Of a stretch of DNA of 64,000 bases, positions 49,768 through 54,723 are shown in pieces. The notes under the pieces are model-generated. The model was not told where the DNA came from and did not search any database. It saw only the letters and a list, made by a program, of their open reading frames with translations. Each line of letters opens with the position of its first letter. Positions within the stretch are counted from its first letter, which is position 1. The stretch covers positions 372,001 to 436,000 of the forward strand of contig NZ_RYFW01000003.1 of NCBI RefSeq assembly GCF_004138335.1, written 5' to 3'. A program made the position numbers and the translations under genes. Origin of the DNA: Peristeroidobacter agariperforans. GTDB taxonomy: Bacteria > Pseudomonadota > Gammaproteobacteria > Steroidobacterales > Steroidobacteraceae.

Positions 49768-50867
49768 GGTCGGGCACCGTGCTTCGGAACATTTGCGCGC
49801 TGGTCGCACTCGTACTTGTCTCCAGTCTGCACATCGCTCGGGCCGAGCCGTACTTCGCCGTTCGCGAGGGACTGAAGTGCGCCAGCTGTCATTTCAATCC
49901 AGCCGGCGGCGGTATGCGCAACGCCTTTGGCAATGGCTGGGCGCAGAGCGCATTGCCGGCGCGTCGCATTGAAGGCACGGGAACGGATGCGTGGACGGGT
50001 GTGTTGAGCTCGTTCGTCGCGCTCGGCGGGAATCTGCGCGCCAATGCGACGTACACCGACGTGCCCAACGCCGATGCCACCTCAGAATTCGAGCTCCAAG
50101 AGCTGCGGGCGTATCTCGCGATCTCGGCGGTTCCAGACCGACTGGCGGTTTATATCGACCAGCGCATCGCGCCTGGCGGCAGTCAGAATCTGGAAGCGTT
50201 CGCTCGTTACACCACGAAAGATCAGCGATGGAACGTTCAGGCCGGGCAGTTCTATCTGCCGTATGGATTGCGGATCGAGGATGACGAGGCCTACATTCGA
50301 CAGGTGACGGGCATCAACTTCGCGACGCCGGATCGTGGCGTGCAGGTCGGCTACGAGTCGGCGCAGTGGTCCGCGCAGCTCGCCGTTTCCAATGGCACGG
50401 CGAGCGGGCCCGAGCCCGATGAAGGTAAGCAGGTGAGCTTGCGAGCCGAACACGTTCAGAATGTCTGGCGATTTGGCGCGGGCTTCAATAACAATCATAC
50501 AGACGCCGGCGACCGACAAATGCAGGGCGTGTTCGCTGGCGTCCGCACCGGCCCGATCGCGTGGCTCGCCGAAGCGGACTATTTGACGGACGAAACCCTC
50601 GGGCCGGTCGAGCGCAAGCAATGGGTCGGCTTGATCGAGGCGAACTGGCTGGTCGGCAAAGGTCAGAATCTGAAACTGACGGCCGAGGTGTTCGAGCCCG
50701 ATACCGACGTGGACGAAGACGAGCAGAATCGTTACAGCCTGGTTTGGGAATATGTGCCGTTCCAGTTCGTGCAGCTCAGAGTCGGCGCGCGCATCTACGA
50801 CGGCATTCCCCAGAACGATCTGCAGAACCGGAAGATCTATTTCGCGCAGGTCAACGGGTTCTTTTAG
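49764..50867 (+). CDS. Outer membrane beta-barrel protein with an N-terminal haem c motif
   Basis: 367 residues. Signal peptide ALVALVLVSSLHIARA is followed at once by YFAVREGLKCASCHFNPAGGGMRNAFG, so a single CxxCH sits near residue 40. The rest is porin-like: alternating strands (LRAYLAISAVPDRLAVYIDQRIAPGG, WNVQAGQFYLPYGL, FGAGFNNNHT) and a terminal aromatic residue (YFAQVNGFF). The porin part resembles phosphate-selective or OprO/P-type barrels. It starts 4 nt inside the haem lipoprotein gene. A haem-bearing barrel suggests electron transfer across the outer membrane (inference). Its stop overlaps that of the convergent lipase-chaperone-like gene (TTAG). Confidence 0.8.
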   Translation: MRSGTVLRNICALVALVLVSSLHIARAEPYFAVREGLKCASCHFNPAGGGMRNAFGNGWAQSALPARRIEGTGTDAWTGVLSSFVALGGNLRANATYTDVPNADATSEFELQELRAYLAISAVPDRLAVYIDQRIAPGGSQNLEAFARYTTKDQRWNVQAGQFYLPYGLRIEDDEAYIRQVTGINFATPDRGVQVGYESAQWSAQLAVSNGTASGPEPDEGKQVSLRAEHVQNVWRFGAGFNNNHTDAGDRQMQGVFAGVRTGPIAWLAEADYLTDETLGPVERKQWVGLIEANWLVGKGQNLKLTAEVFEPDTDVDEDEQNRYSLVWEYVPFQFVQLRVGARIYDGIPQNDLQNRKIYFAQVNGFF

Positions 50868-51565
50868 TGCCGTTGGCCGGCTTCGATCTGGTCGTGCAGC
50901 TTCTGGGCACGCTCGGCCTTTTCCTGCAGCGTCAGGCTTTGATCCTTTTCCAGGCGCATCAGATCGATCAGCGAGCGCGTGACCTCTTCCTCAGCGCCGA
51001 AGAACGCCCTTGCGGCCTCCGGCCCGAAGTGCGCGACGCGTAGTGCGTGCAGACCATCGAGCTCCGCGAGTGCGGCTTCCTCGGTGGTGGGCGCGATGCC
51101 GGGGGGATAGGACTGTCGTTGCTGTTTCGAATAGTTTTCGTAGCGTTCGAGCAGGGCTGTCGCTTCGGCCGCGGCCGCCGGCGGCAACTTCGCCGTGGCG
51201 TCTTGCTGAGCGTCGAGTAGATCTGCGCGATCGGTCTGTGCAAACAACGCTTCCATGTTGAGGCGCGTTTGTTCGTCGAGGACGAGCTTGCCGGTGCTAT
51301 CGACGCGGAATGGATTTTTACCGTCGGTCTTGCCAGGCGGTGTTTCCGGTGCAGGCGTCGTCGTCGCAGGCTCGGGTTCAGCGGGGTGGTCAGATTCGGC
51401 AGGCCTCGCTTCGACTTCGGCCGTTCCAGTTGGGGCAGTCGCAGCTGGCAGTTCCCCAGGCGCGCGAATCTCGACCGATTGCGAAACATCCGGACGCGAC
51501 CACCAGAAGATCGCGGCTCCGCTCGCGACGAGCAAACAAACGAGGCCAAGAATCCGACTTCGCAT
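50864..51565 (-). CDS. Lipase-specific foldase (lipase chaperone)-like protein
   Basis: 233 residues from ATG 51565, shorter than typical foldases of about 340. An N-terminal TM anchor (ILGLVCLLVASGAAIFWW) is followed by a Pro/Glu-rich linker to about residue 80 and then a helical periplasmic domain. That domain reads like Lif: FRVDSTGKLVLDEQTRLN, LPPAAAAEATALLERYENYSKQ, LHALRVAHFGPEAARAFFGAEEE and the end SLTLQEKAERAQKLHDQI. The R-x-x-F-D-Y steric motif is degenerate (RLNMEALF). It begins 66 nt after the PETase-like gene on the same strand, so it is probably its dedicated foldase. Confidence 0.78.
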   Translation of the reverse strand: MRSRILGLVCLLVASGAAIFWWSRPDVSQSVEIRAPGELPAATAPTGTAEVEARPAESDHPAEPEPATTTPAPETPPGKTDGKNPFRVDSTGKLVLDEQTRLNMEALFAQTDRADLLDAQQDATAKLPPAAAAEATALLERYENYSKQQRQSYPPGIAPTTEEAALAELDGLHALRVAHFGPEAARAFFGAEEEVTRSLIDLMRLEKDQSLTLQEKAERAQKLHDQIEAGQRH

Positions 51566-51631
51566 GCAATCGCTCCTGATGGGTTGGGCGAGGATGGCGG
51601 CCATTGCAGCCGCCATCAGAGGCCCGAGCGC

Positions 51632-52498
51632 TCAATACGGACAGGTCGACCGATAGTCCGAGAACACCAGCGACGTGGCATAGCTCTCGTGGGGCGCGCC
51701 GCACAGGAACGGCGAATAGCGCGTGTCGTTATCCATGAAGCGCTTCACCCAGGCCACCGAATAACGGCCAATCGGCGTGTTGGTGGTGTTGGGCGCGAAG
51801 TGCGAGGCGCCGTTCAGTTCCGCATAGGCCTTGTCGAGCGAGCTCGACAGGCTGTTGTAGAACGGAATGGAATGCGAGGCGACCGACGCGACGGAGTCCG
51901 ACTCCGCACCGACGACCAGCGTCGGCACCTGCACGCTCGAGAACGACTTGATCGTGCTCCATGCGGTCAAAGGCACCGCCGCTTTCAACGAAGGATTGTC
52001 ACGCGCGGCATACAACGTTCCGCCGCCACCCATCGAGTGACCGGCTACGCCGCGTCGAGAGGCGTCGACCCGGGCGCGAACGGTGGCGCTACTGGAATTG
52101 GTGACGTAGTTGAGCGCTGCCATCAGCTGTGTCGCGCGGCTCGGCGGTTGATCGAGCGTGGAGTTGGTGTCGATCGTGATCACGACGAAGCCATGCGTTG
52201 CGATACGACGGCCCAGCCACGCGATCGAAGATTCAGTTGCGGTGAAGCCGGGGCAGATCGCCAGCACCGCGTAGCTGCCGGTCGTCGTCGGGTAGTAGAT
52301 GGTGCCGCCGCCGAAGCCGGTGACCAGGCTCGACACGGAGGAGGTTGCGACACTGAACGGACCGCTGGTGGCGTTCAACGCAGCGGAGGTTGGATCGGGT
52401 CCCTTTTGATAGGGATTCGTTTGCGCATTGACGCTGGCGGCCAGAACCAGCAAACCCAGTCCGATGGCCCATCTGTGAAGGAGGCTCTTCCTGTCCAT
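51632..52498 (-). CDS. PETase/cutinase-like polyester hydrolase
   Basis: 288-residue secreted alpha/beta hydrolase strongly resembling IsPETase (290 residues). Start ATG 52498 has AGGGGA upstream. A signal peptide ends ASVNAQ, then [20 protein letters not shown], close to the PETase mature start. The triad is Ser155 (GHSMGGGG), Asp201 (GAESDSV), His233 (NGASHFAPN). Shared blocks include [26 protein letters not shown] and two C-terminal cysteines. The residue before Ser is His and the one after the catalytic His is Phe, as in thermophilic cutinases, and the PETase-specific second disulfide and long loop are missing, so it is a 'type I' PET-hydrolase relative. Polyester or cutin cleavage is inferred. 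Confidence 0.9.
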
Positions 52499-52796: not shown

Positions 52797-53513
52797 TCAT
52801 GGATTATCTGCTCCGCTGATCGGCGCCTCAGGCTGTACTGCAGAGTGGTCTTCGATGACTGGCGTTAGCAAGTCATCGATGCTGACACGCTCGAACTCGA
52901 GCAATTCAGACCATTGCGCGGCTGTTAGCAAAGGCCGCACTTCGTCGAGAAAGGCGCGTTGGTGATGATCGATACCCGCTGCGGCCAGGTCGCGTGCGTA
53001 GGCTCGCTCCATGGCTGGAATGTTTGCTCGGTCCAGCTCGGGATCGAGCACCAGCAATTGCGCGGCGGTTGAGTGATTCAACTTCGCGAGCAGCAGCGCA
53101 CGCTGCTGTTCGGGGTGTAGCGGCGACGTCGTTTGAACCTGGTTCGCGAAGACTTGCAGGTGAGCTTGAATCGCGTCGGACTCGCGAAGTTGCTCGTACA
53201 GCGAGTATTCCTCCGCGCTCAGCAGCAGTGAGATTTCGCGCTCGCGTCTGGCGGAGGAGTCCGCGAGCAATGCCCGTAGGCGAGAGGCGGTCAGGGGCGG
53301 CAGCTGGTCGAGCAGCGCCGCGTACTTCGGAGCGATCGTAATCGCCGGCTCTTGCTCCTCTGCGCCAGGCGCAGGCATTGCTGCGTCGACTGGCGAATCA
53401 ATTCGTTCGACACGCGGCGGCGGTGGCGGAGTGGATTCGGGGTTCGATGTTTCCTTCGAAGCCATCCACCACGCCGCGACCGCAACCACACATGCGATGA
53501 GAGCGCGCCTCAC
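52797..53513 (-). CDS. Membrane-anchored helical protein, probable partner of the upstream hydrolase
   Basis: 238 residues. A short TM/signal anchor (ALIACVVAVAAWWMA) precedes a Pro-rich linker (about 25-55). The rest is almost entirely helical with repeated LL and charged residues, such as LTASRLRALLADSSARRERE, LSAEEYSLYEQLRESDA and AAQWSELLEFERVSIDDLL. I do not recognise the family. The ATG at 53513 overlaps the end of the frameshifted hydrolase by 4 nt. It has the same layout (anchor, linker, helical domain) as the lipase-chaperone-like gene that follows the PETase-like enzyme, which suggests a similar helper role. Confidence 0.72.
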   Translation of the reverse strand: MRRALIACVVAVAAWWMASKETSNPESTPPPPPRVERIDSPVDAAMPAPGAEEQEPAITIAPKYAALLDQLPPLTASRLRALLADSSARREREISLLLSAEEYSLYEQLRESDAIQAHLQVFANQVQTTSPLHPEQQRALLLAKLNHSTAAQLLVLDPELDRANIPAMERAYARDLAAAGIDHHQRAFLDEVRPLLTAAQWSELLEFERVSIDDLLTPVIEDHSAVQPEAPISGADNP

Positions 53514-54723
53514 CAGTTCTTGCTTCGCGTCGACCAGATGCCGCCGCAGAAGTAACAGCCCGCGCCGATGAACATACTGCGACGCTCGGTTTCGCCGCCG
53601 ATGTGCCAGCGCAGCCAGGCGGTGATGGCCGGCAATCCCGAACGGGCCGCGTCGATGTGACCGACGTTGTCCATGATGGTGAACACGATTGGTACTGTGG
53701 TTGCGCTGTAGTCGCGTTCGCAGTTGGGCGTTGCTGTCGTGTCACTCTCGCCGCAGATGTAGATTGCGGGATTGCGCAAGTTGCGAGAGCCGTTGCCATC
53801 GAACGAGCCGCCGGCGACATGAATCGTTGTTTTCAGTCGTGAATCGCTGGCAATGGCGAAGGTGCCGATCGAGCCGCGCGAGTGGCCGCCGGCTGCCATG
53901 CGATCCAGGGCAGACGTTGGTAGTAGGGACTGCCGGCGCGCCCATTCTCACTCACCAGCCAATCCAAGGCGGCGCGCAGCTCGCTGCCGCTGCTGGTCGA
54001 GACTTCCGAGTAAACGACAAATCCGTGTGAAGCGAGGCGTCGCAGATGGAATTCATAGCTGCTCGGGGTCGCGCCTGCGCCCGGGCCCCAGACGAACACA
54101 GGATGCCGCAAGCCGTTTTGACCGAGCGTCGTCGGACGCACGACCCAGCCGCTGCGGCCGGAGCCGGCACTCATGTCGACGGTGGTCGAGAACGGACCGT
54201 CGGTCTCGATGCTCGATACCGGCGGCAGCACGCCACCGCCCGGATCGGGATCCGAGCCGCCCGTGCCATCGAGCACGATGTTTGCAACGGTGTACGTTTC
54301 CAGCAGGCTGCTGGCGCTGACCGCGAAGCGCAGGAACACGCGGCTCTGATTGTTGGCTCCAGCACCGAGGCTCAGCGTGACACGACCGCTCGCAGTTCGA
54401 ACGGACTCGAGCGGAGTGAAACTGCTGCCGTCCGTCGAGTACGAAGCGGTGGCAGTTTCGCCCAGGTCGAGCCCGGACGTTGTGCGGTCGAAGCTCAGTT
54501 GTACGCTCGTGAAGCCTGCGGTGCTGATGGCGGCAGAGGTAATCTGCGCGCCACCAGAGAGGCCGCCACGCGTGCGTGCGCCAAAGGTTCCCGTCGTCAC
54601 GCTGCCGCTGGATGTGAATGTGCCCAAGCCGCCTGCGAAATTCTCCTGAAAGATAGTGGCGGCGGACGCACCGGCACTCACCAGCGCACCGATCGCGATG
54701 GTCGCGAATGTGAGCAATCTCAT
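53510..54723 (-). pseudogene. PETase-superfamily hydrolase with N-terminal beta module, frameshifted
   Basis: Two reading frames join into one 404-residue protein if one base is restored near 53905-53913 (CCAGGGCAG; CCAGGGCCAG would fit). N-terminal frame: signal peptide, then a beta-rich module of about 120 residues (IFQENFAGGLGTFTSSG ... SFDRTTSGLDLGE), then the first half of an alpha/beta hydrolase (WVVRPTTLGQNGLRHPVFVWG, LASHGFVVYSEVS). C-terminal frame: nucleophile in MAAGGHSRGSIGTF, Asp in ICGESDTTATPN, His in MDNVGHIDAARSG. The layout fits the Chlorophyllase2/PETase superfamily. It is a real frameshift or a sequencing error. It starts 26 nt after the beta-propeller protein gene. Confidence 0.8.

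Follow-up and report, generated by a model that had tools for sequence, protein, structure and literature searches.

A truncated relative of lipase-specific foldases is encoded beside PETase-family hydrolases in Gram-negative bacteria and is a putative partner of these enzymes

The window, the whole stretch of 64,000 nucleotides that was analyzed, is part of a 7.65-Mb genome. On its minus strand it encodes a secreted alpha/beta hydrolase of the PETase family (51632-52498) and, 66 nt downstream on the same strand, a protein of 233 residues (50864-51565) related to the lipase-specific foldases (Lif), which we call half-Lif. The start of the PETase was placed at the second ATG (52498); the longest open reading frame extends to 52516. 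The Pfam profile PF12740 covered the enzyme nearly from end to end (positions 2-263 of 263; E 1.9e-118, 395 bits), and its top sequence matches in the PDB were PET hydrolases (E 2.1e-117). Residues Ser161, Asp207, and His239, which we take to be the catalytic triad, were invariant in an alignment of five PETases. The frame of half-Lif reaches 51616, and the ATG at 51565, with AGGAG seven bases 5' of it, is a likelier start than this limit.

The gap between the two genes holds a 10-bp stem-loop (51593-51617, minus strand), and RNA folding of 51560-51640 gave -37.4 kcal/mol (z -3.0). In two other paired loci, inspection of the gap sequence by eye indicated a hairpin, which in L062 resembles that of the window and in L063 differs from it in sequence. 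The stem-loop possibly sets the ratio of enzyme to partner. The promoter scan of the locus found none, and the terminator scan returned two terminator-like sites, no more than chance.

Neighboring genes between 47307 and 50867 encode a protein with a CHRD domain, a small protein bearing the haem motif CxxCH, and a porin-like protein in which CxxCH is N-terminal. The genes of the small and the porin-like protein are syntenic in G001, a genome of the same genus. On the other side of the pair lies p2 (52797-53513, minus strand), a TM-anchored helical protein without a Pfam or NCBIfam family, which we regard as context and not as part of the pair. The same applies to the gene adjoining p2 on its 5' side, a second PETase-like hydrolase that is frameshifted (53510-54723, minus strand, read as 54723-53833 plus 53899-53510; PF12740 25.9 and 12.5 bits) and whose orthologue in G001 is a single open frame (55.6 bits). 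The proposal that p2 is another Lif was rejected, as neither HMM searches nor profile comparison supported it, and half-Lif against full Lif, used as a control, scored 99.4%. The single-sequence model of p2 (pLDDT 50.7) was too poor for a structure search. Relatives of p2 (L292-L297) are likewise TM-anchored and helical, without a known domain or a detectable link to Lif. In four loci the gene immediately upstream of the family member is of the pectate-lyase type (PF03211 checked with Pfam in one, the other three judged by eye), and in two it is PETase-like; the relative in G003 showed neither type of neighbor. The family may be a further type of partner dedicated to secreted enzymes. In G006 (L060) and G561 (L044) the PETase locus is adjoined by a pair of PepSY-TM proteins, which was set aside as a component because, among the loci checked, it was seen only in these two genomes, from which its profile had been built.

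Half-Lif matched the lipase chaperone profile PF03280 with an E-value of 2.9e-12 (47.4 bits, cut-off 25.7) over positions 1-95 of 192, so that MD2 and the C-terminal part of the extended helical domain (EHD) are missing. The best NCBIfam Lif model aligned over positions 7-224 of 336 with 56.4 bits, far under its cut-off of 285; the equivalog cut-offs of NCBIfam were reached neither by this protein nor by the other half-Lifs scored. All of 10 other half-Lifs matched PF03280 (E 0.0012 or better), seven clearly above the cut-off, one at it, and two under it (one clearly, one just). The only match by sequence among solved structures was the lipase chaperone 9g8u_B, and it was weak (E 0.076). An AlphaFold model built on an alignment of 17 sequences, each from the window or a named record, predicted a TM helix (residues 3-22), an Ala/Pro linker of low confidence or disordered to residue 75, and six helices with a pLDDT of 95-98 over residues 91-230. 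The Foldseek search of the PDB with this model returned Lifs as its top four matches (2es4_E, 9g8u_B, 2es4_D, and 6gsf; E 6.2e-4, 1.5e-3, 4.0e-3, and 0.33), with TM-scores by query length of 0.23-0.50 (0.45 for 2es4_E); the fifth match had an E of 4.0. Because of the partial profile matches and the AlphaFold and Foldseek results, half-Lif is a Lif that stops midway, with MD1-like helices and about half of EHD kept and MD2 gone. The C-terminal end fell at a similar position in all 17 aligned half-Lifs, and residues including F86, E105, Y145, R176, and G181 were invariant; on this shared end point and these residues, the reading of half-Lif as a Lif pseudogene was rejected. Relatives were found neither by an exact peptide-pattern scan of genome contigs nor by tblastn in plasmids, whereas a later scan based on the PETase did find them.

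At the position of the RxxFDY motif of Lifs, half-Lif of the window reads RLNMEA. The strict form RxxF[DE][YF] was present in none of 53 half-Lif rows (50 distinct genes) and in 6 of 13 full-length Lifs. In the aligned motif columns, 11 of the 13 full-length Lifs had the phenylalanine and nine the tyrosine, and the 53 half-Lif rows had neither; the MD1 tyrosine was replaced in every one of them, and the aspartate position was still acidic in 52. Loss of the motif may go with the type of client, but this is only a hint, because seven of the 13 full-length Lifs, those of G000 and G008 included, also lack the strict motif.

The initial annotation, made from the letters of the window, had placed both genes at these positions and in the same orientation, and open reading frames were found there on the minus strand. 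It had described the downstream protein as Lif-like and truncated, and both terms were right, because the match to PF03280 is confined to profile positions 1-95 of 192 and the NCBIfam model matches in part. The two sequence motifs that it quoted occur in the protein, and the R-x-x-F-D-Y motif is degenerate, as it said. The comparison with Lif profiles that it proposed gave the match to PF03280, and Lif folds were matched as well.

To find the pair elsewhere, we scanned 84,980 species genomes with the alignment of five PETases and took the best 80 of 570 relatives, 16 of them proteobacterial (Steroidobacter, Mitsuaria, Roseateles, Pelomonas, Hydrogenophaga, Aquabacterium, and other Burkholderiales/Betaproteobacteria) and 64 actinobacterial. 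Among these 80, a profile of eight half-Lifs, which by construction includes two of the loci (L062 and L063), found a half-Lif adjacent and on the same strand at 16/16 proteobacterial loci and beside 0/64 actinobacterial ones. All 16 were likewise detected with a profile made from 13 full-length Lifs alone (E 2.3e-10 or better). The half-Lif gene was directly downstream of the PETase in 15 of these loci and between two PETases in L072.

In close relatives, a PETase of 80% identity or more was present in 3 of 14 genomes of the genus, each time with half-Lif directly downstream. The genome G001 is syntenic for the porin, p2, the second PETase-like gene, and a large propeller protein. There the porin and p2 adjoin each other and neither half-Lif nor a close PETase was found in the genome, so the pair is jointly missing, gain and loss being indistinguishable. 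In the searches of the class, of the order, and of the relatives of an Aquabacterium, scoring was confined to a few first-look candidates in each genome. With that scope, three of 369 genomes of the class had a PETase above 300 bits, all three with a half-Lif partner; the sample of the order centered on G692 was too sparse (1 of 399, G692 itself). In the genus of G692, 11 of 16 genomes carried 14 PETase genes and half-Lif stood beside all 14, though the second profile used contains the half-Lifs of five Roseateles-type genomes, whose matches in this genus are by construction; in three genomes the half-Lif stood between two PETases. Of 319 genomes around an Aquabacterium, 30 carried 56 PETase genes (E 1e-20 or better), of which 24 adjoined a half-Lif (22 on the same strand, two divergent), 31 had no Lif of any kind in the fetched flanks, and one lay at a contig edge. 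The PETase fold therefore needs no Lif in general. The full-length Lif profile alone also matched the half-Lif in every paired locus of this set. The sets overlap, five genomes of the G692 genus and two of the Aquabacterium set being also among the 16, and counted once they comprise 53 paired PETase genes with 50 distinct half-Lifs. Linkage across so many genomes led us to reject a chance neighborhood.

Five genomes of the f158 family (L044, L045, L185-L187) carry a PETase, two successive half-Lifs, and an apolipoprotein N-acyltransferase-like gene, the last checked with Pfam in L044 and identified by eye in the others. Three of these genomes (G676, G680, G683) are no independent test of linkage, because it was the Lif profile that led to them; for G561 and G449 both PETase and Lif did. 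The gene preceding the half-Lif of G314 (L043:1153-4016, plus strand) encodes a hydrolase of the S15/PepX type, so secreted hydrolases other than PETases may also be clients of half-Lifs. Weak PF03280 matches in G075, G079, G186, and G247 were dropped, being by eye sigma-factor-like or secretion/pilus-type genes, as were two further candidates (G398, G662) that by eye were unrelated genes.

Over 290 residues the PETase of G1204 had the same sequence as PDB 6qgc, a poly(ethylene terephthalate) hydrolase that we take to be the Ideonella sakaiensis PETase (IsPETase). Its divergent neighbor, 216 nt away, is a half-Lif of 251 residues (PF03280 60.1 bits, positions 1-100). G1117 has the same divergent arrangement, and there the opposite flank of the PETase carries a full Lif and a lipase-type gene. 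For four locus tags near IsPETase, guessed from the tag of the PETase itself, no paper was found in the open-access literature.

The PETase tree had 93 rows: 51 paired on the same strand, two divergent, 30 unpaired, one at a contig edge (L274, counted apart), and nine of the actinobacterial PETases; L282 (138.8 bits) was left out and partial duplicate views were dropped. On the Gram-negative rows, paired and unpaired PETases were separated by one change (mean of shuffled labels 30.7), and each group against all others required two (shuffled mean 25.6); this tree, quickly built and with long branches, does not distinguish gain from loss of pairing. Some PETases are thus unpaired, but whether one is paired follows descent. 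The distances between PETases correlated with those between their half-Lifs (Mantel r 0.82 over 53 pairs, which include 50 distinct half-Lifs; the largest of 2000 permutations gave 0.26), although linkage and correlated distances would be equally expected from the co-inheritance of neighboring genes.

The Lif tree, also quick and based on the shared region, was split in two by a branch with an SH-aLRT of 96; for this tree the tool warns that long branches meet. One side contained the PETase-linked half-Lifs, both tandem halves of f158, and the full-length Lifs of G000 and G008. The other contained 12 full-length Lifs and the G314 half-Lif that follows the S15-type hydrolase. A family I lipase-like gene was seen by eye near 11 of these 12 full-length Lifs; none was seen within the stretch fetched around the twelfth (L046). 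The full-length Lifs of G000 and G008, which are from Steroidobacter (L001, L020), adjoin a polyesterase-like hydrolase of 223 residues. The relatives of this enzyme include the 2fx5 lipase (E 6.9e-16) as well as PETases (E 6.4e-11), and it gave no match over the Pfam PETase profile.

We consider half-Lif to be a putative dedicated, membrane-anchored periplasmic partner of the PETase that descended from the lipase-specific foldase family, and we give this reading a probability of roughly 0.6. Exported by Sec, the PETase would arrive in the periplasm unfolded. There half-Lif, whose TM helix and long disordered linker hold it at the inner membrane, would catch the enzyme with a one-armed cradle formed by MD1 and part of EHD. 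It could then help the enzyme to fold, or prevent misfolding or too early an action, and would afterwards release it for secretion. The lack of half-Lif at the actinobacterial loci agrees with a periplasmic role. Against a partner we count that the IsPETase pair is divergent and does not form one operon, that more than half of the PETases around Aquabacterium stand without a Lif in the fetched flanks, and that three of the 10 other half-Lifs lie at or under the Pfam cut-off.

Many PETases are produced in E. coli without help, and IsPETase has reportedly been made active there without half-Lif. Isolated MD1 of the Pseudomonas aeruginosa Lif cannot activate its lipase and slows activation by the full Lif (PMC7046727, in excerpt), and in LipH of the same species MD2 gives the stable contacts and those of MD1 are transient (PMC13381987, in excerpt). 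A gentler chaperone is also suggested by the missing MD2 and RxxFDY. Given the failure of isolated MD1, the role of MD2 in stable contacts, and the unaided production reported for IsPETase, a mild chaperone or escort is likelier than an obligatory activator.

The main rival to a chaperone or escort is an inhibitor or tether: half-Lif would bind the folded PETase, keep it inactive or held at the inner membrane, and pass it to the secretion machinery. The behavior of isolated MD1, which does not activate and slows the full Lif (PMC7046727, in excerpt), would suit such a restraint, as would a protein that keeps the anchor and linker without MD2 and the activating motif. We nevertheless think it unlikely, as the retained MD1 and part of EHD and the common ancestry with foldases favor chaperoning. 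It is less probable still that half-Lif acts only in a larger assembly, in which two halves, or a half and a full Lif, would rebuild a two-armed foldase. The two successive half-Lifs after the PETase in the five f158 genomes invite this explanation, and so does G1117, where a half-Lif and a full Lif flank one PETase on opposite sides; the other paired loci, however, showed just one half-Lif beside the PETase, and the second half in G561, too, is N-terminal and not an MD2 half. That the gene is a decaying lipase-foldase remnant beside the PETase by chance would account for the truncation and the loss of the motif, but it is hardly credible in view of the similar end point and invariant residues of the 17 aligned sequences, the open frames in several families of at least two orders, and the linkage across the whole paired part of the PETase tree.

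The putative dedicated partner thus agrees in part with the initial annotation, which had proposed a dedicated foldase for a PETase-clade hydrolase and had suggested looking for the same pair in other genomes, where it proved widely conserved. A dedicated partner is well supported by the matches to Lif profiles and folds and by this conservation; half-Lif is only a putative foldase, because the features needed for lipase activation, MD2 and RxxFDY, are missing. The annotation also knew of no earlier description of such a foldase, and we found no report of the pairing in the open-access literature. Work on PLA or PBSA depolymerases may mention a chaperone-like neighbor gene, and this is the main risk to the novelty of the pairing. 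One source concerns a lipase and its chaperone in polyhydroxyalkanoate degradation and not a PETase (PMC13101487, in excerpt), and another concerns autodisplay plasmids (PMC13195121).

A broader proposal is that Gram-negative PET hydrolases, the Ideonella PETase included, have a dedicated steric chaperone, a one-armed foldase from the branch of Lifs that serves polyester hydrolases. We advance it tentatively, at slightly less than an even chance. PETases are among the most studied enzymes of biotechnology and are not known to have been studied other than as lone proteins. If the proposal is true, they would be a third client class of the steric foldases, and current recombinant work on PETases would be omitting a natural helper. 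A conserved native partner, found even beside IsPETase, would be a directly testable enhancer of yield or activity, and it would help to explain how PETases pass through the periplasm of Gram-negative bacteria. It would further reveal how small a part of a Lif suffices: full Lif, half-Lif, and tandem halves would form a natural deletion series with matched clients, which makes the roles of MD1, EHD, and MD2 experimentally accessible.

Compared with the family of PETases and polyester hydrolases (PF12740; IsPETase and the cutinase-like PET hydrolases), the enzyme of the window shares the strong profile match and the triad residues. A half-Lif neighbor was seen beside some, though not all, of the Gram-negative members and beside no others. 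With Lif/LipH/LipB (PF03280; PDB 2es4, 9g8u), half-Lif has in common the TM anchor, the disordered linker, MD1, and the N-terminal part of EHD, and its gene likewise adjoins that of a secreted alpha/beta hydrolase. It differs from them in lacking the rest of EHD, MD2, and RxxFDY, and in that its neighbor is a PF12740 PETase and not a lipase of subfamily I.1 or I.2. The full-length Steroidobacter Lif (L001, L020) falls with the half-Lifs in the split of the Lif tree and is also without the strict RxxF[DE][YF], but unlike them it keeps the complete length. By description, half-Lif can also be likened to the steric foldases of type II proteases (PMC13381987, in excerpt), which are similarly membrane-anchored, tethered by a linker, and dedicated to a secreted enzyme.
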